From a virus: DNA of 23,301 bases. Of this stretch, positions 4,547 through 21,484 are shown piece by piece. The stretch lies in IMG/VR virus record IMGVR_UViG_3300034109_000299, positions 1 to 23,301 of that record. One strand, 5' to 3'. Position 1 is the stretch's first letter; each line of letters opens with the position of its first letter. The notes beneath the pieces were generated by a model. It searched no databases. It was not told the origin of the DNA and worked only from the letters and a program-made list of their open reading frames with translations. Both the position numbers and the translations under genes were made by a program.

Positions 4547-5941
4547 ATGGCGTCAAAGGCAAACCTCAATGAGGTCGGACTGACCGGACTGGTGACGGTT
4601 GGAACCGGCCAGGTGAAGGAAGAGTTTCTTCCTGAGCTTCAGGGTGCTGCCGGCATCAAGGTCTACAAGGAGATGAAGGACAACGACCCCACCGTCGGGT
4701 CGATCCTCTTCTCCATCGACCAGTCTGTCAGACAGGTCAATTGGAGCGTGGAGGCCAGCACACACCCGGACGCCAAGGGCAGAGCCGACGACGACGCCGA
4801 CTTCCTTCGGTCCTGCATGAGTGATCTGTCCCACACCTGGCCTGACTTCGTCAGCGAGGTGATGACGATGGTCCCGTTCGGCTTCAGCGTCCATGAGATC
4901 GTCTACAAGATGCGTCAGGGCAAGGGTGGCAAGACGCCCTCCAACTTTGACGACGGCAAGATCGGGTGGAGGAAGTTCGCTACCAGGTCGCAGGATTCGA
5001 TCGATCATTGGCTGTTCGATGACAGCGACGGTGGCATCAAGGCCGTTGTGCAGAAGCCTCCCCCCGACTACCGGGAGCGGACGATCCCGATCGACAAGCT
5101 CTTGTTGTTCCGTACCAGCACGATCAAGGGCAATCCTGAGGGACGCTCCGCTCTGCGCAACGCTTACCGACCATGGTGGTACAAGAAGCGGATCGAGGAG
5201 ATCGAGGCGATCGGCATCGAGCGCGATCTTGCCGGCCTCCCGGTCGCTTATGTCGATGCCTCGATCCTTCGCAGTGATGCGAGCGACAACGACAAGCAGG
5301 TTCTTGCTGCCATCCAGAACATTGTTCGGAACATTCGCCAGGACAAGGAAGCGGGGATCATCTGGCCCGTTGTCCATGATGCGAACGGGAACAAGCTCTA
5401 CGACCTCCAGTTGATGAGCAGTGGCGGCTCGCGGAACTTCGACACGTCGGCAATCCTTCAGCGCTACGACAAGTCGATTGCCATGACCGTGCTGGCAGAC
5501 TTCGTGATGCTCGGGAGCACCAGCACCGGGTCGTTCGCTCTTGCTTCGTCCAAGACGAATCTGTTCGCCCAGGCGTTGGGCGCTTGGCTCAAGGTGATCG
5601 AGGGCGTGCTCAACACCTACGCAGTTCCGCGACTGTTTGAGGTCAACGGAATGGATGCCACGCTGCTCCCGCAGATCCGACACGGTGACATCGAGACACC
5701 GGAACTGAATGAACTGGGTGCGTATCTCGGCCAGTTGGCCGGCACCGGTATGCCGTTGTTCCCGAACGCCAAGCTCGAGGAGACGTTGTTGCAGGCCGCT
5801 CGCCTCCCGCTTCCGACGCCAGAGGAGAAGGATCAGCAGGACGCTGGGGCCGGCGATGCGTCTGCCATGGGGCAGTTTGATCAGCCAGCGGATATGGGCT
5901 CTGGCGACATCGTCTCGGCCATCGACCAACTAGCGCAGTGA
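4547..5941 (+). CDS. Portal protein (DUF935/Mu gp29-like)
   Basis: This 464-residue protein should form the dodecameric ring at the capsid vertex through which DNA enters and leaves and to which terminase docks. It has the layout of the DUF935-type portal family: an N-terminal KEMKDNDPTVGSILFSIDQ, a core with VPFGFSVHEIVY, the KLLLFRTS...GNPEGRSALRNAYRPWWYKK segment (broken here), and a C-terminal region ending with an acidic/Gln-rich tail. It is directly followed by a MuF gene, the usual partner, with a GTGA start-stop overlap at 5938-5941. The long open frame on the opposite strand is a GC-skew shadow. Confidence 0.85.
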   Translation: MASKANLNEVGLTGLVTVGTGQVKEEFLPELQGAAGIKVYKEMKDNDPTVGSILFSIDQSVRQVNWSVEASTHPDAKGRADDDADFLRSCMSDLSHTWPDFVSEVMTMVPFGFSVHEIVYKMRQGKGGKTPSNFDDGKIGWRKFATRSQDSIDHWLFDDSDGGIKAVVQKPPPDYRERTIPIDKLLLFRTSTIKGNPEGRSALRNAYRPWWYKKRIEEIEAIGIERDLAGLPVAYVDASILRSDASDNDKQVLAAIQNIVRNIRQDKEAGIIWPVVHDANGNKLYDLQLMSSGGSRNFDTSAILQRYDKSIAMTVLADFVMLGSTSTGSFALASSKTNLFAQALGAWLKVIEGVLNTYAVPRLFEVNGMDATLLPQIRHGDIETPELNELGAYLGQLAGTGMPLFPNAKLEETLLQAARLPLPTPEEKDQQDAGAGDASAMGQFDQPADMGSGDIVSAIDQLAQ

Positions 5942-8900
5942 TCCCGCTCCCCGGCCAGCATGCCTCGGTGGCCAAGGCACGCCGTAAGAAGACCGCTTCG
6001 ATTGATGCCCAGTTCGACTACGTCGCCGCCGCCAGTGAGTGGGCCGACGAGCACGCCGGCGAATTGATCTCCGGCGACCTCACCGAGTCTCAGCGTCGTG
6101 CCATCAGCACTCAGATCAAGCGTGCGATTGCCAGGGGCGACACTCAGGAGCAGGCGGCGAAACGGATCAGGCCGCTGATTGGTCTGAGCGAGCGTGACGC
6201 CCTTGCGGTGTCGAACCTCGAGTCGTCGCTGCGCAACCAAGGGAAGTCGGAGCGCCAGGTCAGACGCGATGTCAACGGATACAGCCGGCGTCTGCACAAT
6301 CAGCGCGCCAACCTTGTCGCCGCACATGAGATCGCCCGTGCCTACGCTGAGGGCAAGCGCCGGGAGTGGGAGCAGGCTCGCCGCGAGGGCGTCCTGTCCC
6401 GCAACGCTGTGCGGGTCTACCACTGCCATCGGGACGACCGGACGTGTGCTTCGTGTCTGGCCAACGACGGGGTCAGGACAAAGGTTGGTTCGGTCGGGCC
6501 AACCCCTCCCCTGCATCCGAGGTGCCGGTGCTGGGAGACGGTCGAGGATCCAGCCCCTCCGAAGTCCACCAAGCCGAAGAAGCTTGATCGATTCGGGCCG
6601 TTCCCAAAGGCACCGGGCAAGAAGCTCGAGCGATTCGGGCCGTTCCCCAAAGCCCCCTCACCGGAGCCCGCACTTGTCCGGTTCGGCCCATTCCCGAAGG
6701 CGGTGTCGAAGTCACGGGTTGTTGTTCCCCCGTACCGGAGGGCAGACGGAACCTGGGTCGAGGGCTATTCGTATGAGCGGAAGCGCCGCCGGCGTGCGTT
6801 GTCGAAGTCCGAGTTCCAGACCGAGTTGGCCAGAGTGCTGCCGGGGCTCAACGGAACCCTGAGCCAGAACGTCGCCAGAGAAGACCCGGCGAACGAGAAG
6901 GGGTATTCGGTCGAGCGCACGAAGAGGCCGATCGTCAGAGTCACCGAGGACGTGGCCCTGACGGACTACGAGCGTGGGGTTGTGCTTGAGCGACTCACCG
7001 AGATGGCGCTTCGTTACCCCGAGACAGCTAGCAACGTGGTGAGCATCAGCTTTGTCACCGAGAAGTCGATCAACGCAGCTGCCTCTACCGGCCTGACATC
7101 GGTGCTCGATAGTCCGGGATTTGACGACCAAGAGCAGCGGCTCGGGATCCACTACAACTTCTCTGTCGATGCGTTCCGCAACTGGCCGAGCCCCACCATC
7201 GTCAACAGTTACTGGCCGCGACAAGAGCGGCAGATGGACACTACAGAGGTTCGTGCCCTTCGGGAGACTGGTGGCACGCTGTTCGACAACGAGGACGACG
7301 TTGCTGCGAGAATCAGTGAACTGATCGTCCATGAGTGGACCCACGGTAGGCACTTCGTCACCATTGCCAAGCGCCTGTCCGAGCGTGCCGACGGGAAGAG
7401 GAACGCTCCCCCGATGCAGCGTGCGTTCCGCATGATGCGCAACGACGCAGACCTGTTCACCACCCTGCTTTATGGCCGGCATGATCAGCAACTGAGCCAG
7501 CGACTGTTGTCGGCTCTGAGTCAGACCAACCTGCAAGGTCTGCCGGCGTCCGGTCTGATGAGCGAGGCCAGGGAGGTTAGCAAGTACGCCACGGCCAACG
7601 TCGCTGAGGCGGTGGCCGAGGCAGCAACACTCGAGTACGTCATGCCGAAGGCTGATGGATTCCGCCGCCGGGTGGTCCCTGGGCTTACCGAGGCGGTTGA
7701 GTCGCTTGCCAAGTCCGGTCTTCAGGTGCTGCCCGACGGGTCGGTTGGCATCGCTTGCCAACTCGGCACCGGCCATTCACACGACCTGGTCGAGAAGACA
7801 CGGGTCGTCGTTCCTCCGTACCGCAAGGCCGACGGAACCTGGGTCGAGGGCTATTCCTACGAGCGCCGGAGGCGGCGCTCCGGGTCACCCACCAAGCGGC
7901 GCATCCGGCGTCCCGCCAAGGTCGGTACCGTCGGCGATGTGATCAGCGAGGCCGTTGCTGAGGCACGGGCTCAACTCCCCGACGAGGGCGAGTGGTTCGT
8001 TGGCGGGGTGGCAGCAAATTCGTTCAACCCGGAGGACGACCGCCAGCTTGATGTGATCATCAATCTCGGCAAGGTGATTGACGAGCAATTGTCAAAGGCA
8101 ACAGAGAGCGACAAGCTGGAACGGGAGCGGCTCCTCGAGGACCATCGAGCGACCCTCAAGGCGTTTGAGGCTCGTCGTGGCCAACTGCGCGACAAGCTCG
8201 TTGAACTTGCTGCGCCGCAGATAGCCAGCACCTTTGGCGAGCCGGTCGAGGACTTGAACTTGATTCTCGGGGCGTATGTCACCGACGAAGGTGACATCGA
8301 TCACGATGCATTCCTCGCCACCACCAAGAACTGGAAAGCCATCATCCAGCACGATGGGTCGCAGTTGCGCGTCATCAAGTACTCCAAGAAGGATCGATCA
8401 AACGACCTATCGGTTGCCCAGTTCAAGAAGATCAAGGACAACGGTGCTGGTAAGCCGAGAGGGTGGAGCAGACATTCTTGGGAGCCCAGCGAGCCAGAGG
8501 CAGCAGCGTGGGACGAACTGAGGTCTGGCCGAGAGAAGGAGATCGAAATCGCCAAAGAGTGGGGTGACCTTATCGCAAAGCCTCGCAACTTCTCTGCGTC
8601 CTGGGTCAATGTGATGGGGCTCGGTCCCGTTGACCCGGACGACATTGTTCCGCTTGACGATCGTTACTCTGATCCAGAGTTCGTTGCCGACGCTCTCAAG
8701 GTTGTGCCCGAGAGGATGCGCCGTTGGGTCCGTACTGTGGTGTGGGATCAGACGTGGCAGTGGGAAGATGGCCGCGGTCGCTCTCACTACGAGAACTACG
8801 CCCACAGCGGGCGACCGGAGCTTGGCAGGATCGGGCTGGCCAACCGCAACGCCGGCTCTGTCGTCCATGAGTTCTTCCACCACGTCGAGGTTCAGGACAA

Positions 8901-9198
8901 GGATGTTGGGAGGGCCACCTGGGCGTTCCGTGAGCGACGGACGAGTGGTGAAGAGTTGGTTCAGATGGAGTCCCTGGTACCGCTCGGCGGCTACCGGCCA
9001 GACGAGATCACCAAGCCAGACAAGTTCTTCGACCCGTATGCGGGTGTCCATTATCCCAACAGCCACCTTCGCAACGGGGCACACGCTACCGAGATCCTGA
9101 CGATGGGCGTCCAGGCGGTTCTGTGGTCGAACAGCAAGCCGGAGCCGGATCAGGAGTACCGTGCGTTCGTTCTCGGGCTATTGGCGTTGAAGGGGTGA
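5938..9198 (+). CDS. MuF head protein fused to two HExxH peptidase-like domains
   Basis: This 1086-residue protein is several times longer than a simple MuF protein. Residues 1-200 are the MuF-like head morphogenesis domain, with a metal-binding set DRTCASC (Cys170, Cys173) and HPRCRCW (His193, Cys196, Cys198). Three RFGPFPKA motifs follow (218, 232, 248), then a VVVPPY...DGTWVEGY module (260-286). A first zincin-like domain has HEWTH (465-469) and a later Glu-rich AEAVAEA. A second VVVPPY module (622-647) leads to a coiled, charged region and a second zincin-like domain with HEFFH (977-981) and a possible third ligand in ATEILTMG (Glu1052). It probably sits at the portal inside the head; the extra domains look like cargo. 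No ribosome-binding site is seen at GTG 5938, which overlaps the portal stop. Confidence 0.82.
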   Translation: MIPLPGQHASVAKARRKKTASIDAQFDYVAAASEWADEHAGELISGDLTESQRRAISTQIKRAIARGDTQEQAAKRIRPLIGLSERDALAVSNLESSLRNQGKSERQVRRDVNGYSRRLHNQRANLVAAHEIARAYAEGKRREWEQARREGVLSRNAVRVYHCHRDDRTCASCLANDGVRTKVGSVGPTPPLHPRCRCWETVEDPAPPKSTKPKKLDRFGPFPKAPGKKLERFGPFPKAPSPEPALVRFGPFPKAVSKSRVVVPPYRRADGTWVEGYSYERKRRRRALSKSEFQTELARVLPGLNGTLSQNVAREDPANEKGYSVERTKRPIVRVTEDVALTDYERGVVLERLTEMALRYPETASNVVSISFVTEKSINAAASTGLTSVLDSPGFDDQEQRLGIHYNFSVDAFRNWPSPTIVNSYWPRQERQMDTTEVRALRETGGTLFDNEDDVAARISELIVHEWTHGRHFVTIAKRLSERADGKRNAPPMQRAFRMMRNDADLFTTLLYGRHDQQLSQRLLSALSQTNLQGLPASGLMSEAREVSKYATANVAEAVAEAATLEYVMPKADGFRRRVVPGLTEAVESLAKSGLQVLPDGSVGIACQLGTGHSHDLVEKTRVVVPPYRKADGTWVEGYSYERRRRRSGSPTKRRIRRPAKVGTVGDVISEAVAEARAQLPDEGEWFVGGVAANSFNPEDDRQLDVIINLGKVIDEQLSKATESDKLERERLLEDHRATLKAFEARRGQLRDKLVELAAPQIASTFGEPVEDLNLILGAYVTDEGDIDHDAFLATTKNWKAIIQHDGSQLRVIKYSKKDRSNDLSVAQFKKIKDNGAGKPRGWSRHSWEPSEPEAAAWDELRSGREKEIEIAKEWGDLIAKPRNFSASWVNVMGLGPVDPDDIVPLDDRYSDPEFVADALKVVPERMRRWVRTVVWDQTWQWEDGRGRSHYENYAHSGRPELGRIGLANRNAGSVVHEFFHHVEVQDKDVGRATWAFRERRTSGEELVQMESLVPLGGYRPDEITKPDKFFDPYAGVHYPNSHLRNGAHATEILTMGVQAVLWSNSKPEPDQEYRAFVLGLLALKG
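6589..6702 (+). repeat. Three RFGPFPKA motifs in the MuF protein
   Basis: Residues 218, 232 and 248 each begin RFGPFPKA, spaced 14 and 16 residues apart by Pro/Lys linkers. The codons differ between copies, so the amino-acid motif, not the DNA, is conserved. The same motif occurs twice at the C-terminus of the HK97 gp10-like protein (21407-21481). Confidence 0.85.
6715..6795 (+). repeat. VVVPPY/DGTxVxGY module, copy 1
   Basis: Residues 260-286 of the MuF protein: RVVVPPYRRADG, then TWVEGYSYER, then a run of Lys/Arg. It sits exactly between the RFGPFPKA cluster and the first HExxH domain. Confidence 0.85.
7801..7878 (+). repeat. VVVPPY/DGTxVxGY module, copy 2
   Basis: Residues 622-647 of the MuF protein, between the two HExxH domains, ending in five Arg. 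The 44 bases 7810-7853 are identical to 9426-9469 in the next gene. Confidence 0.88.
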
Positions 9199-9200
9199 CA

Positions 9201-11291
9201 ATGAGGTGGCAGACGCCTACCGAGAGCGTGACGGTAGAAGAGATCGACGGGGTGTGGTTGTTCGGTGGTCAGTGGGGCTCGGTGGTTGAGTCGCTGATTC
9301 TTGCGGGCGTCACCGTCCCCGGCCCCGAGGGTGGCGAGCGTGCAACCACCGACAACATCGGCCTGACCGTCAAGTTCGTCACTGGTGAGGGGTTGGTCGC
9401 AGCTGTCAGCAAACAGGTCGTTGTTGTTCCTCCGTACCGCAAGGCCGACGGAACCTGGGTCGAGGGCTACTCGTACAACTCTGCCCGACGCCGGCGGCGT
9501 CGTGTCAGGCCGTATCGGCGTACTTCGACCAGACGCGGTGACATCGGCAGCGACGCCGACTGGGCCTGGCCACACCGGGCCGACCAGCGACTTCGCGACG
9601 ACGTTCGCATGGAGACGAAGGAGCGCATCAACGCAGAGTTGAGCGGTTTGATGTTGGAGGATCCAGAGGTCGTTGCCGCACTGACCGAGATCGTCTCAGA
9701 ACCGAGCTACAGCGACCTGGACATTCAGACTCTGGCAAGCCGCTTTGCCAAGAACGCTGTTGACGAGTGGGCTCGCACCTCGGTCAAGTCACCGTTGGCG
9801 TGGTTCGTTCAGCAGCGTGCCGAGGTGTTGTTCGGTGTTGATGATCTTGGTTCTACCGCATTGGTGCGTAGCGCTACCTCTAATCACAGGCTGGTTGGCG
9901 ACGCCAGTGATCCAGACCTTGATCTCAACCCGACCTGGTCGGCAAAGCCTTGGGATCAGGGACTTGGGCGCATGCTGGCTGATGGCCCAAGCGTGCCAGC
10001 GCTGGCCTCCGACGACTTCGGTGACCGCACTGAGCGTCTGGCAACGTCATTGGTCGACGGATACCTGCGCTCCGTCTACACGAACACCCAGGAGTTCCTT
10101 GCCAAGCGAGAGCGTGAAACCGGCCAGACCGAGTACAACCTGGTCCGTGGTGTCGGGTCACAGTACGTTCCCGCCGACGCCGGCAGGGAGGATTTGATCC
10201 AGAGGATTGATCCCGACACCGCTGCGAGAATTATCGAGGCTGCCAAGGAAGTACGACTCCGGGGCGATCGATGGGGTGCGGCTCGAGCCCGTCAGTTGGA
10301 GACTGCCGAAACCCTGTCGATCAGTCTTCGCGATGTCGCTGATTTCGTTCAGATGCGGGGCGAAAGTCTTGTTGGTGACGACGCACCTCTCGGTGCAATG
10401 CTCATGGCGCTCGCCTATGAACTGAGGTCATCGGCAAAGACCGGTTCGTGGATGTCGCCTCAGATGTCGGGGTCAACCACGAAGCAGCGGCTATGGAACG
10501 CCTTGGTTCCCAAGAGCTCGCCAGAGTCGTATTCGGACGAAAGAGCGGCCAGTAATGCCGCAGCTGACCGGCGGTTGGCGCTCATAGAACTGTTTGCTCA
10601 TCTTGGCGAGGAGGATGGCCACGCCCCTCGGCCAGAGAACTACGAGCGCTTTGCCGACGAGCTTGATCAGACTTTCAGGTCGATTCCAACCGATCAGATG
10701 ACAACTCTGATCGAGCGTCTGAGACTTGACTCTGAGGCAAGGTTCTCTGTGGACAACGCTTCCAGCAATCGGGCACAAGCGGGCAGAGAGTTCAATTCGA
10801 TTCTCAGCGAGGCCGGCGTCGCTCCCGTGTTCTCTGACATCGCGACATACCTCGACCGGCCCTTTGACTTTGATTCTCTGCTGCGGATGGATCCGCAATC
10901 CATGGCGACCGCAGTGATAGTCGACGCTACCCAGGCGGTGCTTCAGCCGCTGAGTTCGTTCGCCACCAGTGCTGGTCCCACCGATGGGTTTGGACGGACC
11001 AAAGTGGTGATCAGCGTGCCGCGAGAGCGCATCTTCAGCACTGCGATGAGTGGGCCGGGGTGCCTTGCGGAGGACGAGATGATCGTTGTTGGTGGTGTGG
11101 TTGATGCTGACGTGATTCACGACAGGGAGAAGAAACTCGTCCAGGTTGCCCCTACCGGCGATCTCCTTTCCTCGAGCGGTGGGGTTGTGCAGAAGGCCGG
11201 CGAGTACATCTACCTTGACGTTGACGGAGATCCAGACTGGCCGAAGCGAACGCCTGACCAGGTGGCAGACATCAAGGCTCAGATGTCTTGA
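9201..11291 (+). CDS. Large protein with ADP-ribosyltransferase-like C-terminus
   Basis: This 696-residue protein starts at ATG 9201, directly behind AAGGGG (9190-9195), two bases after the MuF stop; longer starts lie inside the MuF gene. Residues 1-70 are unrecognised, residues 73-101 are the VVVPPY module with an Arg run, and the rest is largely helical. The C-terminal VPRERIFSTAMSGPGCLAEDE then MIVVGG resembles the last strands of phage ADP-ribosyltransferases, with Glu624-x-Glu626 as the ExE motif; LVRGVGS (Arg316) and LSISL (373-375) could be the R and S-T-S elements, though the spacing to ExE is long. Such enzymes in phages modify host proteins after injection. The fold assignment is tentative. 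Confidence 0.6.
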   Translation: MRWQTPTESVTVEEIDGVWLFGGQWGSVVESLILAGVTVPGPEGGERATTDNIGLTVKFVTGEGLVAAVSKQVVVVPPYRKADGTWVEGYSYNSARRRRRRVRPYRRTSTRRGDIGSDADWAWPHRADQRLRDDVRMETKERINAELSGLMLEDPEVVAALTEIVSEPSYSDLDIQTLASRFAKNAVDEWARTSVKSPLAWFVQQRAEVLFGVDDLGSTALVRSATSNHRLVGDASDPDLDLNPTWSAKPWDQGLGRMLADGPSVPALASDDFGDRTERLATSLVDGYLRSVYTNTQEFLAKRERETGQTEYNLVRGVGSQYVPADAGREDLIQRIDPDTAARIIEAAKEVRLRGDRWGAARARQLETAETLSISLRDVADFVQMRGESLVGDDAPLGAMLMALAYELRSSAKTGSWMSPQMSGSTTKQRLWNALVPKSSPESYSDERAASNAAADRRLALIELFAHLGEEDGHAPRPENYERFADELDQTFRSIPTDQMTTLIERLRLDSEARFSVDNASSNRAQAGREFNSILSEAGVAPVFSDIATYLDRPFDFDSLLRMDPQSMATAVIVDATQAVLQPLSSFATSAGPTDGFGRTKVVISVPRERIFSTAMSGPGCLAEDEMIVVGGVVDADVIHDREKKLVQVAPTGDLLSSSGGVVQKAGEYIYLDVDGDPDWPKRTPDQVADIKAQMS
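9417..9503 (+). repeat. VVVPPY/DGTxVxGY module, copy 3
   Basis: Residues 73-101 of the ADP-ribosyltransferase-like protein, ending in six Arg. Bases 9426-9469 are identical to 7810-7853 in the MuF gene. Confidence 0.88.
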
Positions 11292-11806
11292 CGATCACCG
11301 CTGGGTGTGACCCCTCAAGCAAGCGGCTTGCCGTGATTGTCAGTCACCACGACGACAGGGTGAGTGCTCATGTGTGGGACAGCCCGTATGCGAAGTGGGA
11401 ACCGCTGGCCTGCTTGTCTGCGCATCAGTGGGTGATGACTGAGTTCGGCGGGTTTGAGCCGGGTGACGTTTGGATCGAACAGTCATTGGTTGGACGAGGT
11501 GGTGCGCACCCCACCATCGTCCAGAGTTTCGTCAGTGGCGCAGTGCAGACGGCGTTTCTGCGACTCGGATGGACAACCAGGTTGGTACATCCATCGACAT
11601 GGAAGTCCCGTATCGGGACGGGAGGTGCGAGCAAGGATGCCGTCAGAGAATGCGTTAGGCGGCGATGGGGAGATGGCTTCGGAGTCACTGGTGATGACGG
11701 TGATCTCATCGATGCTTCAGGGATCTGCCTTTACGGACGAGACTTACATGCCACAGCGTCTCAACTCGGCATGGCGGGCTCGAGCAGCGTGCATCGGACG
11801 GACTGA
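11288..11806 (+). CDS. RuvC-like Holliday junction resolvase/nuclease
   Basis: This 172-residue protein has an RNase H-type fold in RuvC order. GCDPSSKRLAVIV carries the first Asp (near residue 8), WIEQSLVGRGG a catalytic Glu, HPSTWKSRIGTGGASK the substrate-side loop, and DLIDASGICLYG the last acidic residues. Phage versions resolve branched DNA before or during packaging. The start is TTG 11288, which overlaps the TGA of the previous gene (TTGA), and the 3' end overlaps WhiB by 59 bases. The last 20 or so residues beyond the overlap look dispensable. Confidence 0.78.
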   Translation: MTITAGCDPSSKRLAVIVSHHDDRVSAHVWDSPYAKWEPLACLSAHQWVMTEFGGFEPGDVWIEQSLVGRGGAHPTIVQSFVSGAVQTAFLRLGWTTRLVHPSTWKSRIGTGGASKDAVRECVRRRWGDGFGVTGDDGDLIDASGICLYGRDLHATASQLGMAGSSSVHRTD

Positions 11807-12080
11807 ACTGTTCTTTGCGCCGCATATCTGTTGGACGGATTGCCCCAGCGATTGCCAGGCCGGCAGGAAAGAGACTGGCCGTTACAGTCGGATCAAGCAG
11901 GCCAAGGCGCTCTGCAACGGTGTTGCTGGGGTCACCGGGCAGCCGGCTTGCCCGGTTCGCGACGAGTGCCTTGAATGGGCGATCGAGGTCAACTTCGCTC
12001 ACGGCTTCATCGGCGGGAAGAGTGCTCGCGAGCGAAAGCTCATCATCAAGTCCAGAGCGGCGACCGGGACCGCTGCCTGA
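11748..12080 (+). CDS. whiB-like: WhiB-family Fe-S transcription factor
   Basis: This 110-residue protein is a Wbl protein, a 4Fe-4S regulator that binds the primary sigma factor and is confined to actinobacteria and their phages. It shows WRARAACIG then ELFFAP, a middle Cys cluster ICWTDCPSDC, AKALC, then CPVRDECLEWAI, the turn GFIGGKS and the basic C-terminus. The gap between the second and third core Cys is 11 residues (ALC...ACPV), where the usual spacing is two. ATG 11748 is preferred; ATG 11712 would add 12 residues. In a mycobacteriophage, a WhiB protein is known to interfere with the host WhiB2 and septation; a similar role is possible here. Confidence 0.85.
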   Translation: MPQRLNSAWRARAACIGRTELFFAPHICWTDCPSDCQAGRKETGRYSRIKQAKALCNGVAGVTGQPACPVRDECLEWAIEVNFAHGFIGGKSARERKLIIKSRAATGTAA

Positions 12081-12081
12081 G

Positions 12082-12087
12082 TACGCT
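12082..12087 (+). promoter_or_regulatory. TACGCT -10-like box, leaderless start at 12094
   Basis: TACGCT ends six bases before ATG 12094 and begins one base after the whiB stop codon. There is no ribosome-binding site. It is one of four identical boxes with this spacing in the window. Confidence 0.6.
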
Positions 12088-12093
12088 GGTTTG

Positions 12094-14202
12094 ATGCACC
12101 AGTTCGGCGGGATCGTCACCAAGCACCTGCCTGGACGCCACGACCAGAGCAGTCATGGGCGACGCCGGTTCCAGATCGGCACACCGCTCGACACGATCGA
12201 GGCGGCAGCGGTGGATCTGTCGAACCAGAACCCTGGCAAGTACGTCGTGGTCGTCAACGACTTCGGGGCGCACCTCGTCGTCCGCAACCGACTGTCCGCG
12301 GACACGCCGGCTGCGTCGGCGCTCGGCCACTACTGGCTCAACGGCAAGAAGAAGAGCTTCACCGCACGTCAGAAGGAGCGAGCCCACGAAGACGCCGAGG
12401 GTTCCGGCGGCGACGGTGCGGCGCAGATCGAGCGGGAGCGTCGTGCGTCCCGCAAGTCGAAACAGATGGCCTCCGCTGACAAGCCGCTCGGCATGGCGAC
12501 CCGGCTCAAGTCCGAGGGCAGGATCTGGACGAAGACCGGCGCCGACAAGTGGTACTCGCCCGTCTTCGATGAGGACTACGAGGTCATCAGCGAGGACTAC
12601 CGCACCAACGACGAGATGGATGTTGCCCGAGGGTACGTCGCCAAGGCTGCAATGTGCTCTGTCTGTGGCCGGAAACTCACCTCTAGGGAGTCGATTGCTC
12701 TTGGCTTCGGGCCGTCACACTCAAGGGCTCAGATCAAGGTGGCGCTCGCCAAGCCGAACATTCCTGCTCCGGTGCGTGAACGCATGCTCCAGCGTATTTC
12801 TGGTGGTAGCGCTGGCCGGGTGAAGCCGGTGCGTCGCGAGAGGTCAAAGAACAAGCAAACCGTCTACGAGTTGAACGAGTCCGAGTTCAAGAGCATCCCT
12901 CAAGATGTCGTGAGAACCAGGGCTGGCAAGCGGATCACCAACCGGGGCCAGACGGCGGCTGCTTACGCCCTCGCTGTCGGTGGCGTGAACGGCGCTATGG
13001 CCGGGTTCAGGCATCACTCCAGCCTGGCTGCCGGTGCCACCAACCCGGCTAATCCGATTCTCAAGCAGATGGTCGACAACCTCCGAGCGTTGCAGGAGGT
13101 AGCAGAACGCAAGGAGCGTGAGAACGGATTCATCAGTCGTACCCGCAAGTGGTACGACGGTGCTCACGACGTTGCAATCGACATTGCAACCGGGTCGAAG
13201 AAAGAGGACTTTGACGAGGACGGCGCTGCCGGCGTGCTTGCGGTTCTGTCGGCGTCAATGGACTGGGACAACAATGTCTTTCTGGCACGGGAGGTCGTGA
13301 GGATCATTGACGACAACCCCGAGGTCACAGAGGACGATCTCGCTCAGTTGAAGTCGCTGGTCAAGAAGCTCAACTGGGACGAGAAGAAGAAGAAGCCGAA
13401 GAGCCCGAAGGCTCGCGGCTACGTCACCGTTGACCCGCCAGACGCCGATACCAAGCTTGTCAACGTGAAGGATCCGCAGACTCGGGCACTACTACTCCGA
13501 GTTATTTCTGTCCGTCAGCACGGCGGTGAGCCACGCAGCCCGTACCTTCGTATTGACGAGGACGGAAAGATCGTGGAGGACACCGCTCGGGGTACTCAGA
13601 AGACTCGATACCAGTCTGGCGAGAACCTGGCGAAGGCCATTGCCATCTACCTTGACCCGACTCCAGAGACGCTGGACACACAATTGGGCAGTGGCGTGAA
13701 GGTGCGATCCTTCTACAACAACATTGCTTATCCAGATGCTCCAGAGGGCGATGTCACGATCGATACGCATGCTGCGTCTGCCTTGGTCGGTGCTCCCTAC
13801 GCCGCAAACACCGAGCCGTTCAAGACGATCACTGAGAAGTCGTCAGCAGAGGATGGTCCTTACGTCAAGCTGTTGATGATCGAGGCGTTCAGAATTGTCG
13901 CTGCCGAGAATCCGCAGTACTACGCACATCCAAGAGAGGCGCAGTCGGTTCTGTGGGAGTTGTGGCGCGAGGCCGCAGAGGCGAACGATGCGGTGTCAAA
14001 GCGCCGCAAGGCAGAGTTGCGCCAGGCGTGGGCGGCTGTCGATGTTCCTGGTGTCGACGTGGAGTGGATGACCGAGCAGGCTCGCAGTCTGATGATCGAC
14101 TTCGTCGCCGGCCCTGTGCAGGGTCCGATGCGCGATGACGCCCAATTTCGGGACGGGCCGCTGGTCAATCGAGAGGAGTTCACCCTTGGGCAAGCTCGGT
14201 AG
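12094..14202 (+). CDS. HLPGRHDQSSHG protein with HhH-glycosylase-like domain
   Basis: This 702-residue protein starts at the leaderless ATG 12094; the open frame extends further upstream only as a shadow of whiB. The N-terminus carries KHLPGRHDQSSHGRR, a short motif I recall at the ends of many phage head-associated proteins. Around residues 185-215 is a CSVCGRKLT...GFGPSHS zinc-finger-like element. The C-terminal domain (about 360-650) resembles the helix-hairpin-helix DNA glycosylase fold: AAGVLAVLSASMDWDNN, then GVKVRSFYNNI, then DVTIDTHAASAL, where Asp557 matches the catalytic Asp of the VDTH motif in endonuclease III/MutY. It may be a packaged DNA-repair or DNA-damaging enzyme. The glycosylase call is moderate, its activity unknown. 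Confidence 0.62.
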   Translation: MHQFGGIVTKHLPGRHDQSSHGRRRFQIGTPLDTIEAAAVDLSNQNPGKYVVVVNDFGAHLVVRNRLSADTPAASALGHYWLNGKKKSFTARQKERAHEDAEGSGGDGAAQIERERRASRKSKQMASADKPLGMATRLKSEGRIWTKTGADKWYSPVFDEDYEVISEDYRTNDEMDVARGYVAKAAMCSVCGRKLTSRESIALGFGPSHSRAQIKVALAKPNIPAPVRERMLQRISGGSAGRVKPVRRERSKNKQTVYELNESEFKSIPQDVVRTRAGKRITNRGQTAAAYALAVGGVNGAMAGFRHHSSLAAGATNPANPILKQMVDNLRALQEVAERKERENGFISRTRKWYDGAHDVAIDIATGSKKEDFDEDGAAGVLAVLSASMDWDNNVFLAREVVRIIDDNPEVTEDDLAQLKSLVKKLNWDEKKKKPKSPKARGYVTVDPPDADTKLVNVKDPQTRALLLRVISVRQHGGEPRSPYLRIDEDGKIVEDTARGTQKTRYQSGENLAKAIAIYLDPTPETLDTQLGSGVKVRSFYNNIAYPDAPEGDVTIDTHAASALVGAPYAANTEPFKTITEKSSAEDGPYVKLLMIEAFRIVAAENPQYYAHPREAQSVLWELWREAAEANDAVSKRRKAELRQAWAAVDVPGVDVEWMTEQARSLMIDFVAGPVQGPMRDDAQFRDGPLVNREEFTLGQAR

Positions 14203-14365
14203 GGTCAATCCGGTGGTACTGCACGACGGGGTTGACACCGACGATGACAACGAACAGATCGACCTCGAGAACGCAGCGTTTGACGAGATGCTTTCTGAGT
14301 GGGTTGTTGATCACGGCGCTGTTCCCGTTGATCAATTCGCCAGTCTCGGAGACATCGGCGGATGA
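14186..14365 (+). CDS. Small acidic protein
   Basis: This 59-residue ORF starts at TTG 14186, chosen because AGGAG (14174-14178) lies seven bases upstream; it overlaps the end of the previous gene by 17 bases. It is acidic (DTDDDNEQIDLEN) with a short amphipathic helix FDEMLSEWVV. I do not recognise it. It lies immediately before the promoter of the protease gene. Confidence 0.55.
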   Translation: MGKLGRVNPVVLHDGVDTDDDNEQIDLENAAFDEMLSEWVVDHGAVPVDQFASLGDIGG

Positions 14366-14377
14366 CTGAGCCACCGG

Positions 14378-14383
14378 TACGCT
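14378..14383 (+). promoter_or_regulatory. TACGCT -10-like box, leaderless start at 14391
   Basis: TACGCT ends seven bases before ATG 14391, with no ribosome-binding site. It would drive the protease, scaffold and capsid genes, which are then tightly packed down to the terminator at 20155. Confidence 0.6.
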
Positions 14384-14390
14384 CAGTGCA

Positions 14391-16697
14391 ATGAGCGGCA
14401 ATGTCGAGAGCGTCAGCAAGGTCCGGGTGGTCGTTCCTCCGTACATCCGGCCAGACGGAACGAAGGTCAAGGGGTACTCCTACGAGCGTGGCGGCGGCTC
14501 TGCTGCTCGCCCGCCACGCCAGCGCAGTCGCCGGCCAGCGTCGCTGAAGCCAACCACAACAGCGAAGCTCGAGGGTGACGGAAGCGAGGAGCGCCCCTAC
14601 AAGGTTCGTGATGCCAAGACCGGGCTCCGTCTGATCGCAGCTGGCAAGCACGTCGAGATGGACAAGGACACCGTCGGTGTCGTGCTCGACAAGCTTGCGT
14701 CGATTGGCACCGAGGCGTTTGAGGCGAAGAAGTCTGGCAAGAAGCTGAAGGTGCCCAACTTCAACCTCTGCCTGGTGCATGTTCCTGGAGCCAACCTCTT
14801 CTGTGAGGAGGACAAGGACATCCCCAGGCTCAAGATGCCTCAGGTCAAGGGCGAGAACATTCGTGCGGGCTCGGACGCTGAGAAGTTGCTGGCCAAGCAG
14901 AACGAGGAGCGCCGCAAGGCCGGCAAGGAGCCGACCAAGGAGGTCGACGCCACCGAGGAGTACATCTCGTATCTGAAGGAGAATGGCCTGGACGTGTCCG
15001 ATTCAGAGGTCGCTTCCGACCGCTTGAAGGCGACGCAGAACGAGTTGGTTGGCGACAAGGTTGCCAGCATGATGTCTTCGACCCTGGATCCCGGCAGCAA
15101 GTTTGATGCGACCGAGGGCAGCATCTTCACGTCTTCGGACAACTACGTCGTGGACGGTCATCACCGCTGGGCCGCTGCGGTCAGCCTCAAGTTCAAGAAG
15201 GGTGGCCCAGCACCGCAGATGAAGGTGCAGCAGATCAACGCCCCGATCGAGCGGGTGCTTGAACTGACGAACAAGTTCGTCAAGGAGTTCGGGATCGAGG
15301 GCAATGCCGCCAACACGCTTGGCAAGGGTGCGCCTCCCTGCATCGGCTGTGGCGAGGTCGTCAAGGGCGGCGGGAACCTCGCTGCCCACATCCGCTCCGA
15401 ACTGAAGGCCAAGCACGCCGCCAATGCACAGAATGTTGGTGTGAGTCGCCGGCTGTCCCCAGCGGAGATCCGCCAGCGCAAGGAGGCCGCTCACAAGGCG
15501 GCGATAGCAAGATCCATGCGAGCCCGTCGCGAGCGTAAGAAGGCCGGCAATCAGCAGTGGAGGAAGTCACTGCGCCATGCCGTGGAGCACATGGCTGGTG
15601 AGGCCACTGGCGTCGGTTGGCTGTCCGCTCCCCCGCCGTTCCCGTACCATCCAAAGGGCGTTGGGCACGGTTCTGTTGCGAAGGCCATGCCCAACCCGAA
15701 GTCCAGCCCCAAGGAGATCGCTGGGAGCCATGGCCACAAGCCGCATGGCAAGAGCATCCTCTGGCCGGCGATGTACGAGGAGTTGCGGGCCAAGGGGCAC
15801 TCCAAGACAAAGGCAGCGGCGATCTCCAATGCTGCCTGGAACAAGAAGCACGGCGCTGCCGGGAACGCCACCTCGACCAGAGTCACCAAGGCCAATGGCG
15901 GCAGGGTGTGGGTTCCTCCGCACGCGAAGGCCGATGGCACTCGAGTGAAGGGGTACTGGCAGGACCGTAAGACTGGTCGTCGCAAGGCTGTTGCCAGTTC
16001 CACGAAAGACATGGCCAGCGGAATGAAGTCGGTCAACACGCCCGAGGGGCGACGGGCGTTGGCTCGCCGGCTTCAGTCTGACGCCGCAAGCTCCAAGCGC
16101 ATGGCTGGCAAGCGCCCGAAGTTGGGCCGCATCCCGACCGAGGACCAGGCCGAGAAGATGGACCCCAAGCAACTTGCTGGGATTGCCATCAGGCTCAACG
16201 AGCAGATGGAGCGGGCGAAGAGTCAGTTGTGGGCTGAAAGCAACGCTGAGAGGGAGCGCATCAAGGCAACCATCAAGAAGCACGACGAGCCTATCCCCGG
16301 TGTGATCGTCAAGACCGACGACGACAAGCAACTCGTCTTTGGTTGGATGTACGTCACTCACGACAGGAACGGGGAGGTCGTGGTCGACAAGAGCGGCGAC
16401 TTCGTTGATGACGTGACCGAGCTTGAAGATGCTGCGATTGAGTTCGTGCTTGACTCAAGGGCCGGCGGCGTTGAGCATCGTCGCGATGGCGATGGCCCAA
16501 TGGTGGCCAGTCGATTGGTCGAGAGCGTTGTGTTCACGCCAGAGAAGCTTGAGGCGCTCGGCCTGGAAGCGGGCACGTTGCCCTCGGGCTGGTGGGCCGG
16601 GTGGCGAGTTGATGACCCTGATGTGTGGGCCGATGTACGGGCCAACAAGTACCGAGGATTCAGTATCCACGGTGCTGGTGTCAGAGAGGCTGTGTGA
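14391..16697 (+). CDS. ParB/Srx-like domain fused to XkdF-type prohead protease
   Basis: This 768-residue protein opens with a VVVPPY module (11-33). A ParB/sulfiredoxin-like domain follows, with SSDNYVVDGHHRW (248-260). Next come a CIGC...H zinc-finger-like segment, a basic LSPAEIRQRKEAA segment (355-386), and a short unit MYEELRAKGHSKTKAAAISN, which I recall as a recurrent small phage domain. A second module is RVWVPPHAKADG (505-526). The C-terminus (about 640-768) matches the XkdF family of putative phage serine proteases: VFGWMYV, DKSGDFVDD, His696 in GVEHRR, Ser712 in VESVVF, and a WWAGWRV...YRGFSIHG end. It probably trims scaffold and tagged proteins in the prohead. The next gene overlaps by one base. 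Confidence 0.78.
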   Translation: MSGNVESVSKVRVVVPPYIRPDGTKVKGYSYERGGGSAARPPRQRSRRPASLKPTTTAKLEGDGSEERPYKVRDAKTGLRLIAAGKHVEMDKDTVGVVLDKLASIGTEAFEAKKSGKKLKVPNFNLCLVHVPGANLFCEEDKDIPRLKMPQVKGENIRAGSDAEKLLAKQNEERRKAGKEPTKEVDATEEYISYLKENGLDVSDSEVASDRLKATQNELVGDKVASMMSSTLDPGSKFDATEGSIFTSSDNYVVDGHHRWAAAVSLKFKKGGPAPQMKVQQINAPIERVLELTNKFVKEFGIEGNAANTLGKGAPPCIGCGEVVKGGGNLAAHIRSELKAKHAANAQNVGVSRRLSPAEIRQRKEAAHKAAIARSMRARRERKKAGNQQWRKSLRHAVEHMAGEATGVGWLSAPPPFPYHPKGVGHGSVAKAMPNPKSSPKEIAGSHGHKPHGKSILWPAMYEELRAKGHSKTKAAAISNAAWNKKHGAAGNATSTRVTKANGGRVWVPPHAKADGTRVKGYWQDRKTGRRKAVASSTKDMASGMKSVNTPEGRRALARRLQSDAASSKRMAGKRPKLGRIPTEDQAEKMDPKQLAGIAIRLNEQMERAKSQLWAESNAERERIKATIKKHDEPIPGVIVKTDDDKQLVFGWMYVTHDRNGEVVVDKSGDFVDDVTELEDAAIEFVLDSRAGGVEHRRDGDGPMVASRLVESVVFTPEKLEALGLEAGTLPSGWWAGWRVDDPDVWADVRANKYRGFSIHGAGVREAV
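14421..14489 (+). repeat. VVVPPY/DGTxVxGY module, copy 4
   Basis: Residues 11-33 of the protease fusion: VRVVVPPYIRPDG, then TKVKGYSYER. Unlike the other copies it is at the extreme N-terminus, and the following tract is Gly/Ser before becoming Arg-rich. Confidence 0.85.
15903..15968 (+). repeat. VVVPPY/DGTxVxGY module, copy 5 (divergent)
   Basis: Residues 505-526 of the protease fusion: RVWVPPHAKADG, then TRVKGYWQDR, followed by KTGRRK. It separates the ParB-like and small-domain half from the XkdF half. Confidence 0.75.
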
Positions 16698-17575: not shown

Positions 17576-17991
17576 GTGAGGCCGCTCGCCGCATGGCTGC
17601 GGCCTACACCCGCAAACAGGTCACCGGAGCCCGCAAGGGCACGCTGACCTCTAGGGAGCGCCAGCAGCGGATTGCAGCTGCTCGAGCGAGCGCCGCCAAA
17701 CGCAAGGGCAGCGGAACCAAGAACAAGAATCCTCAGACTCCAGAGACGAAGGCTCGGGAGCGGGTGAGGGTGCGACGTGAAACACCTGGTACTCCAGAGT
17801 ACGCAGCGGCCCTGCGCACGCTGAAGGCGGCAGTTACGTCTGGCAAGGCGATCAGGGTGACGCCCGAGGATCTTGATCGAATCGAGCAACGGCTCAAGCG
17901 CAAGCGGGGCGTCAAGGTCCAGCGTGACGGCGACAAGATCGTCGCAACGCTTTCTGATGGCAGGACACTGTCGATCGAAGGGAATCAATAA
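17572..17991 (+). CDS. Small basic protein of unknown function
   Basis: This 139-residue, strongly Lys/Arg-rich protein starts at GTG 17572 (GTGA overlap with the previous stop). Residues 25-45 (LTSRERQQRIAAARASAAKR) form a basic helix similar to segments in the two upstream proteins. The C-terminus is a short mixed domain (TPEDLDRIEQRLK, then KVQRDGDKIVATLSDGRTL). No family recognised; DNA- or scaffold-binding is plausible from charge alone. Confidence 0.6.
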   Translation: MSEAARRMAAAYTRKQVTGARKGTLTSRERQQRIAAARASAAKRKGSGTKNKNPQTPETKARERVRVRRETPGTPEYAAALRTLKAAVTSGKAIRVTPEDLDRIEQRLKRKRGVKVQRDGDKIVATLSDGRTLSIEGNQ

Positions 17992-18743
17992 TGAAGCGAT
18001 ACCGACTCAAGAAGTTGAAGCTGGACGAGGTCAGTCTCGTTGCTTCCGGCGACGACCCGATGGCGCAGGTCGTCATTGCAAAGACCGACAAGACACCGGA
18101 CTCCGTTGATGAAGTCTCTACTCTCACATCAGAGACGGCGATCAAGGAGATTGACGTGGCCGACGAGCACGATGACATCATCGACACCAGTGACATCCCT
18201 GCCGATGTCGTGGCCTACATCGAGGAACTGGAGAGCGTGGTGAACGAGTTGTCCGCTGCGCTGCCGACCGAGGACGAGATCGACGCTGCGCTGGTGGAAC
18301 TGGCTGAGCAGGAGACGGTGCTCGCCAAGGCCGACCCGGTCATCCAGGAGTTGGTCTTCAAGGCCCAGCGAGAGGCCGAGGAGGCGCGTGAGATCGCCAA
18401 GGCCGAGCGTGACGCTCGCATCACCCGCGAGTACATCGAGGTGGCCAAGAGCCTTCAGATGATCGATGGCGACTCCGAGCATCTCGGTCGTGTCCTGAAG
18501 TCGCTGTCCGAGCACCTCCCCGAGGATCTCGCCAGCGAGGTGTCCAGCCTGCTGGTCACCGCCAACGAGCGTCTCGAGAAGTCGGCGCTGTTCGGTGAGA
18601 TCGGCACCGCCGTTCCCGCCGTGAGTTCCTCGGTCGAAGCCCTGGCGAGCGAGATCCGCAAGGCAGAGCCGGCGCTCTCCTACGAGGAGGCCGTCGTGCG
18701 TGCCTACGAGACGAACCCGAACCTCTACCTCCAGGAGAGCTGA
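17991..18743 (+). CDS. Scaffold-like protein with XkdF-type C-terminal strand at its N-terminus
   Basis: This 250-residue protein starts at ATG 17991 (TAATG overlap) behind AAGGGA. The N-terminus, RLKKLKLDEVSLVASGDDP then MAQVVI, matches the segment that in XkdF-type proteases usually follows the GFSIGG motif. The rest is acidic and coiled-coil-like (ELAEQETVLAKADP, AQREAEEAREIAKAERD), typical for scaffolding proteins that direct capsid assembly and are then degraded. It lies directly before the decoration and capsid genes, the normal place for scaffold. Confidence 0.7.
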   Translation: MKRYRLKKLKLDEVSLVASGDDPMAQVVIAKTDKTPDSVDEVSTLTSETAIKEIDVADEHDDIIDTSDIPADVVAYIEELESVVNELSAALPTEDEIDAALVELAEQETVLAKADPVIQELVFKAQREAEEAREIAKAERDARITREYIEVAKSLQMIDGDSEHLGRVLKSLSEHLPEDLASEVSSLLVTANERLEKSALFGEIGTAVPAVSSSVEALASEIRKAEPALSYEEAVVRAYETNPNLYLQES

Positions 18744-20951: not shown

Positions 20952-21484
20952 TGCCGGTCTACGACATCAACACCAGAATCTCGGTCAATCGCAAGCACGG
21001 CCCCGACGGGAACTACAACGACATCGCCGCCAGATTGGTGTCGAAGCAACCGATCATCGCTCTCCGCACCGCTCAGGCGCTGTCCACCTATGCGAGGCTC
21101 ACTGCGCCCCAGCCTCCCCGCAAGGCGTGGTGGTACGACAAGCCGCCGAACCCACGAACGAAGAAGACTGTTCCGCTCCTCGAGCAGTACGTCCGTACCG
21201 GCAGGCTGGCCAAGTCGATCTCAGCCCCGGTCAAGGCCGGAACCGGCGAGTACATCATCACGATCGGGGCTCCCTACGCCAAGTTCGTGGAGCACGGAAC
21301 CCGTTACATGCCGCCTCAGCCGTTCTGGCGTTCGTCGGTCAAGCACATCAGGAGCGAAGTCATGCCTGGTCTTGTTCAGGAGTGGATCAAGAAGGATCCG
21401 ATCAAGAAGTTCGGCCCGTTCCCGAAAGCTCCCTCTGAGCCAGCGCCGATCAAGAGGTTCGGCCCGTTCCCGAAGGCCGGTTGA
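20951..21484 (+). CDS. HK97 gp10-like head-tail protein with RFGPFPKA tail
   Basis: This 177-residue protein carries the HK97 gp10 signature: an N-terminal set of helices, TGRLAKSI, then GAPYAKFVEHGTRYMPPQPF and a terminal helix. These proteins join the tail to the head or cap the tail. Start ATG 20951 follows GGGAGGAGA. The last 25 residues are an extension with two (K/R)FGPFPKA motifs (153-160 and 169-176), the same motif found three times in the MuF protein; it is not a normal part of the family. Confidence 0.8.
   Translation: MPVYDINTRISVNRKHGPDGNYNDIAARLVSKQPIIALRTAQALSTYARLTAPQPPRKAWWYDKPPNPRTKKTVPLLEQYVRTGRLAKSISAPVKAGTGEYIITIGAPYAKFVEHGTRYMPPQPFWRSSVKHIRSEVMPGLVQEWIKKDPIKKFGPFPKAPSEPAPIKRFGPFPKAG
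21407..21481 (+). repeat. Two (K/R)FGPFPKA motifs at the gp10-like C-terminus
   Basis: KFGPFPKA and RFGPFPKA are separated by PSEPAPIK, and the second ends one residue before the stop. The linker resembles the Pro/Glu/Lys linkers between the MuF copies (6589-6702). Confidence 0.85.

Follow-up and report, generated by a model that had tools for sequence, protein, structure and literature searches.

To our knowledge, the selection of proteins for the phage head is understood in very few systems, namely T4 and DarB of P1. A reporter enters the capsid when it carries the first 30 residues of P1 DarB, for which the first 9 are insufficient, and the authors of that study found no sequence common to the Dar proteins (PMC9024508). 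The T4 IPIII signal is described in the same paper as a short peptide at the N-terminus by which unrelated proteins are sent into the head. Polyvalent proteins (Iyer et al. 2017, PMC5512222) are multi-domain effectors with MuF, ART, ParB-like, methylase and zincin domains, encoded beside portal and head genes, and are proposed there to be injected.

The window, by which we mean the whole 23,301-nucleotide stretch of viral DNA analysed here, has its head genes in the order portal, MuF fusion, ADP-ribosyltransferase-like, RuvC-like, WhiB-like, DUF7178, XkdF fusion, scaffold-like and capsid-like (Table 1), the last two being called by position and the WhiB-like gene by eye. The WhiB-like ORF in the head block suggests an actinobacterial host. 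The portal used as bait recovered no close relatives, and the closest matches of MuF, in fecal phage MT835491 and Arthrobacter phage Laroye, had no copy of the module described below in the stretches examined. Two of the products encoded between the portal and capsid genes, the MuF fusion and the XkdF/phrog_2859 fusion, each combine several biochemically different domains, the property by which polyvalent proteins are recognised. The MuF fusion consists of MuF, three FGPFPKA repeats, a module copy, a region with HEWTH, a second module copy and a region with HEFFH; the XkdF fusion consists of a module copy, a phrog_2859 region (176-386), DUF7218, a second module copy and Peptidase_S78_2. One HExxH motif thus follows each module copy of the MuF fusion (HEWTHGRH and HEFFHHVE), and both look zincin-like by eye. 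These HExxH regions had no Pfam match, and matches of the C-terminal regions were limited to phrog families of unknown function or of minor head proteins. Alignment of the ADP-ribosyltransferase-like protein with tagged relatives revealed a C-terminal IFS..SGxGCLxExE region, for which the AlphaFold2 model (pLDDT 40) gave no usable fold.

Table 1. Positions of the genes and short repeated elements in the window.
Feature	Position	Strand	Remarks
Portal protein	4547..5941	+	Portal_Mu E 7e-33; phrog_113 E 2.9e-84
MuF fusion, 1086 aa	5938..9198	+	MuF domain 56-198, PF04233 E 3.3e-8
Three RFGPFPKA repeats	6592..6702	+	MuF fusion, right before module copy 1
Module copy 1, RVVVPPYRRADGTWVEGY	6715..6768	+	MuF fusion, residues 260-277
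Module copy 2, RVVVPPYRKADGTWVEGY	7801..7854	+	MuF fusion, residues 622-639
ADP-ribosyltransferase-like protein, 696 aa	9201..11291	+	DRAT match weak (E 0.015) and short of the Pfam cut-off
Module copy 3, VVVVPPYRKADGTWVEGY	9417..9470	+	ADP-ribosyltransferase-like protein, residue 73
RuvC-like Holliday junction resolvase	11288-11806		among head genes; phrog_159 E 3.7e-8
WhiB-like ORF	11748-12080		within head block; by eye
DUF7178/DUF6011 protein, 702 aa	12094..14202	+	N-terminal start MHQFGGIVTKHLPGRHDQSSHGRRR
Second tag type, KHLPGRHDQSSHG	12121..12159	+	N-terminus of DUF7178 protein
XkdF protease fusion, 768 aa	14391..16697	+	Peptidase_S78_2 639-765
Module copy 4, RVVVPPYIRPDGTKVKGY	14424..14477	+	XkdF fusion, residue 11, near N-terminus
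Module copy 5, RVWVPPHAKADGTRVKGY	15903..15956	+	XkdF fusion, residue 505, between DUF7218 (452-489) and XkdF (639-765)
Scaffold-like protein	17991..18743	+	ends carrier block; phrog_13547 (function unknown) and position; putative scaffold role
Two FGPFPKA repeats	21410..21478	+	C-terminus of HK97-gp10-like neck protein

An earlier note on this DNA had placed five copies of a short module in three large head-region proteins. A six-frame search of the whole window with the pattern common to the copies, [RV]-V-[VW]-V-P-P-[YH]-x-x-x-D-G-T-x-V-x-G-Y, found exactly these five at the same residues, all on the + strand, and none elsewhere; residue 73 for copy 3 holds if the ADP-ribosyltransferase-like protein starts at ATG 9201. 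The alignment has ten invariant columns (V.VPP....DGT.V.GY). In the window's predicted proteins DGT.V occurs five times against 0.17 expected from shuffled proteins, the full pattern did not arise in 2000 shuffles, and blastp of the window proteins against each other linked the copies at E = 1e-3 to 1e-13. The basic tracts were also borne out: copies 1, 2 and 3 run into Arg/Lys runs, with 7, 10 and 10 K+R over the 20 residues that follow (against protein means of 2.3-3.4), and copies 4 and 5 are followed by fewer, 6 each. The note also placed most copies at a domain boundary. Copy 1 lies behind MuF and copy 5 between DUF7218 and XkdF; copy 4 is close to the protein's start, and copies 2 and 3 fall at positions without any recognised Pfam domain. 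Copy 3 is also close to an N-terminus, and copies 1, 2 and 5 are internal, each ahead of a further domain or region.

The DNA of copies 1, 2 and 3 is 86-88% identical over a 57-base core, and the flanks align poorly. Copies 1 and 2 differ by six synonymous and one non-synonymous codons among 19, and copies 1 and 5 by ten and seven, respectively. Because the close copies diverge mostly synonymously, we conclude that the peptide is kept by selection. Recent DNA duplication as the whole explanation of the copies is ruled out by the same synonymous divergence. AlphaFold2, given copy 1 and 31 relatives (32 aligned modules), predicted a two-strand beta-hairpin with a core pLDDT of 91-95, between flanks predicted to be disordered (pLDDT 56-62 on both sides). 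A PDB profile search returned no solved structure related by sequence, the matches being limited to sub-threshold ribosomal uL14 and chance matches.

The earlier note had suggested that the idea could extend beyond this phage, and it does: in other phages, unrelated enzymes encoded in the portal-to-protease interval have related hairpins at their N-termini. Bordetella phage PHB04 encodes two such proteins between portal and head protease, unrelated to each other and both starting with the hairpin, an HD phosphohydrolase (VIVFLKAQVAGYTRQDGTVVSPYYR) and a DarB-like N6-methylase/SNF2 protein of 2097 aa (MIILLTKAQLALFDTPVHVGAHVRKDGTVVKPHIR). The profile has no other strong match anywhere in the 94 kb record (E 3e-16 and 3e-14 for these two, 0.008 for the next). 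The arrangement is repeated in five PHB04-like relatives (L073, L176, L177, L179, L180), identified by tblastn to the PHB04 portal, MuF-like, HD and other head-block proteins. The PHB04-type carriers have the tag within the first 25-45 residues, and many of the proteins open with a short hydrophobic stretch that closes with K[AS], such as 'VIVFLKA', 'MIILLTKA' or 'MILLFKA'. The HD homologues of Erwinia phage SNUABM_1 and of BcepSauron have no tag; given that they begin at the HD domain, the hairpin must be regarded as an added module. A prophage of the environmental bacterium Pararobbsia silviterrae DHC34 (L007/L183) has two tagged genes adjoining the terminase gene, the second tagged stretch lying after the first and before the terminase; one of the two contains LLKAVSKKQVYVPAYTRHDGT, close to window copy 1 (FPKAVSKSRVVVPPYRRADGT). 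Further carriers lie behind the portal (L045), before the terminase (L025, L047) and in the terminase block (L024/L105, L084).

One possible explanation for these arrangements is that the module is a stable linker hairpin without a binding partner, a passive joint or recombination seam across which domains can be swapped and which is copied from gene to gene. The conserved 57-base core of copies 1-3 between differing flanks would be expected of such a seam, as would the variety of effector domains behind the tags. However, the mostly synonymous divergence of the close copies indicates selection on the peptide, N-terminal tags without an upstream domain join nothing, and related phages retain the tag on HD enzymes that in other phages are without it. 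We therefore consider a passive joint unlikely.

The earlier note had also described a related RKDGTxVxxH motif as widespread in unrelated proteins. This is real, in that the generic pattern V.V..[YH]...DGT.V..[YH], which fits all five window copies, is often met in viral contigs. Outside the window phage, VVVPPY in its exact form is almost absent; strict proline patterns gave 0-8 viral matches, and annotated phages searched by tblastn with the 32-aa module gave no match at E 10. Among the matches listed, 108 hairpin copies were classified by an unselective scan whose crude rule puts the phage protein L007 in the signal-peptide class: 38 lie behind a signal-peptide-like stretch, 30 are in proteins of less than 70 aa, 27 are C-terminal, 11 are N-terminal and 2 are internal. 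Secreted and tiny carriers are thus common, so the hairpin alone is no head signal, and the generic hairpin cannot be taken as head-specific when most listed copies are secreted-type, tiny or C-terminal. The cellular background is low, since only 4 of 396 genomes (phylum of an actinomycete contig) and 6 of 250 (order of Pararobbsia) had matches at the thresholds used. The small secreted VxVxGYxRKDGTYVxPHxR proteins belong to the same hairpin sequence class as the window module but differ from it in having a signal peptide, mostly GY or GH where the module has PPY, and a position farther from head genes where measured. Phage proteins of 40-64 aa (L018, L029, L046, L075, L128) have a C-terminal hairpin (..HKRHTPK, ..HRRSTPN) and are encoded about 1-2 kb from the terminase gene. 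Two adjacent small proteins of a viral contig (L004:1796-2420), each starting MAKIYVPAHTRADGTxVKG, are encoded about 6 kb before a terminase.

The prevalence of secreted, tiny or C-terminal carriers among the listed generic matches is what one would expect if the module were a general protein-protein or surface-binding hairpin, unrelated to the virion and recruited by chance to several genes of the window. Its distribution argues against this. Of 13 records with non-secreted carriers, 11 have the tag gene no more than 5 kb from portal or terminase, as against none of the 4 with secreted carriers (Fisher P = 0.006), and the distances of the two groups also differ (Mann-Whitney P = 0.0008), the numbers being small and the carriers classified by hand; non-secreted carriers thus cluster at portal or terminase and secreted ones do not. 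Several tagged genes moreover fall within one interval of one phage. We regard chance recruitment of a general hairpin as very unlikely.

Two other short modules, on which the earlier note is silent, share the carrier gene region, FGPFPKA, present five times, and KHLPGRHDQSSHG. The FGPFPKA repeats are identical in residues and vary in codons, and a search of viral contigs for FGPFPKA gave no matches. The N-terminal short module of the DUF7178 protein reads KHLPGRHDQSSHGRRR and is unlike the hairpin module. It belongs to the motif HLPGxHDQxxHG (the HDQ tag), which is found once in the window and elsewhere up to four times per protein; 94 copies were found in 75 stretches, 95% of them in ORFs of at least 200 aa. 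Although unrelated to the hairpin, this second module has the hairpin's architecture. Elsewhere it occurs at the junctions of portal, MuF and ADP-ribosyltransferase fusions. For example, one protein (L197) has a portal at 72-387, an HDQ tag at 499, an ART-like region, a second tag at 766 and an ART exoenzyme at 831-1020, and another (L207) has tags at 204 and 396 followed by ART at 434-604. HDQ tags also stand before and behind a DRAT-like domain (L198), flank MuF on both sides (L268) and number four in a further MuF protein (L202). In L253, two HDQ tags accompany phrog_2859, to which the XkdF fusion of the window is likewise matched in its part after copy 4. Gly-rich linkers often come after the HDQ module. 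Bcep22-like DarB proteins that match this region include JC1 gp69, which is present in virions by mass spectrometry (PMC9144972); neither tag is present in the DarB-like protein of BcepIL02. In addition, helicase-like proteins encoded in the same head blocks (L132:22902-27458, L104:10185-13796) have another recurrent module at the N-terminus, ILxLKASxPxGARWITVHPNGPGTEGQPVLI.

The earlier note had proposed a tag or processing site for cargo enzymes. One could envision cleavage at the module and its basic run, either by the head protease of XkdF type or by the MuF fusion's HExxH regions, so that separate enzymes are freed. The XkdF protease shares its gene block with the module and, for some of the copies, the protein itself, HExxH motifs lie behind copies 1 and 2, and release of polyvalent units by zincins has been proposed (PMC5512222). 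However, the conserved part of the module is the predicted folded hairpin and not the Lys/Arg run, which is not conserved in relatives, the PHB04-type tags at the extreme N-terminus have no upstream domain that a cut could release, and L197, a portal-ART fusion with HDQ tags, has no match to any peptidase family. The processing half of the proposal is therefore the weaker one and, in our opinion, quite unlikely, whereas the tag half is supported by genomics, namely by the tagged enzymes, the untagged HD homologues and the DarB homologue. Another scenario is that the basic, aromatic module is a nucleic-acid-binding hairpin that binds DNA, on which the enzymes would ride into the head. This would account for the strong Arg/Lys run behind copies 1-3 and for the R that ends the second strand in nearly all relatives listed, although the latter is partly demanded by the search pattern. 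We think it improbable, as the basic run is particular to the window phage, the flanks of the PHB04-type and L024-type modules differ, and what often follows the HDQ module, whose architecture is the same, is a Gly-rich linker.

We consider it slightly better than an even chance that the module is a self-folding beta-hairpin serving as a docking (capsid-targeting) tag, placed N-terminal to each effector domain loaded into the head. A role in loading head cargo is suggested because other phages also place related or different peptides before enzymes. Such a docking tag would stand near the very N-terminus of single proteins and be repeated before further domains in the MuF, portal and protease fusions. 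It would probably bind a component of the prohead interior, which may be the scaffold, the portal-MuF complex or an inner shell, so that unrelated tagged enzymes would be enclosed with the DNA in the head and later injected. Prohead binding, presence in the virion and injection are what we infer for the tagged proteins, and the tag may be trimmed off after packaging. More tentatively, and with a chance somewhat short of even, tailed phages may use short interchangeable loading tags, one per cargo domain and repeated in portal, MuF and protease fusions, by which mixed sets of enzymes would be assembled into the head, the type of tag going with the lineage and the cargo being swapped freely. The candidates would be the DGT beta-hairpin, HLPGxHDQxxHG and, possibly, FGPFPKA and 'ARWITVHPNG'. 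If many phages do have a recognisable tag of this kind, some 20 residues long and repeated ahead of cargo domains, packaged effectors could be read from sequence, many genes of unknown function that lie between portal and protease could be assigned as injected proteins, and there would be short signals with which to load proteins into phage heads.

How does this compare with the known systems? N-terminal capsid targeting and injected polyvalent proteins are known, and a repeated, lineage-specific tag before cargo domains appears undescribed in the limited open-access literature covered here. Gp027 of PHB04 is homologous to P1 DarB (E 1e-52), from residue 289 of the PHB04 protein and residue 29 of the P1 protein onwards. 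The capsid-targeting sequence of P1 DarB is N-terminal on a large packaged antirestriction enzyme, and the gp027 hairpin is at the same end; the P1 DarB N-terminus (MNKLSMGVFRCSSVSEILKYIRAITSHRAP) has no hairpin, and the P1 targeting sequence is also not repeated. Placement at the N-terminus applies to the PHB04-type carriers and to window copy 4, whereas copies 1, 2 and 5 are internal. The module can likewise be compared with the T4 IPIII signal, by description and not by sequence, with the difference that it is also internal and repeated. For polyvalent proteins, a short module repeated before each domain is not described in the available part of the text (PMC5512222). In the MuF polymorphic toxins (Jamet et al. 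2017, PMC5576092), MuF is followed by C-terminal effector domains, a layout that the MuF fusion of the window may share; the text of that paper uses neither 'linker' nor 'motif', and the junction module of the window recurs also in proteins that are not MuF proteins.
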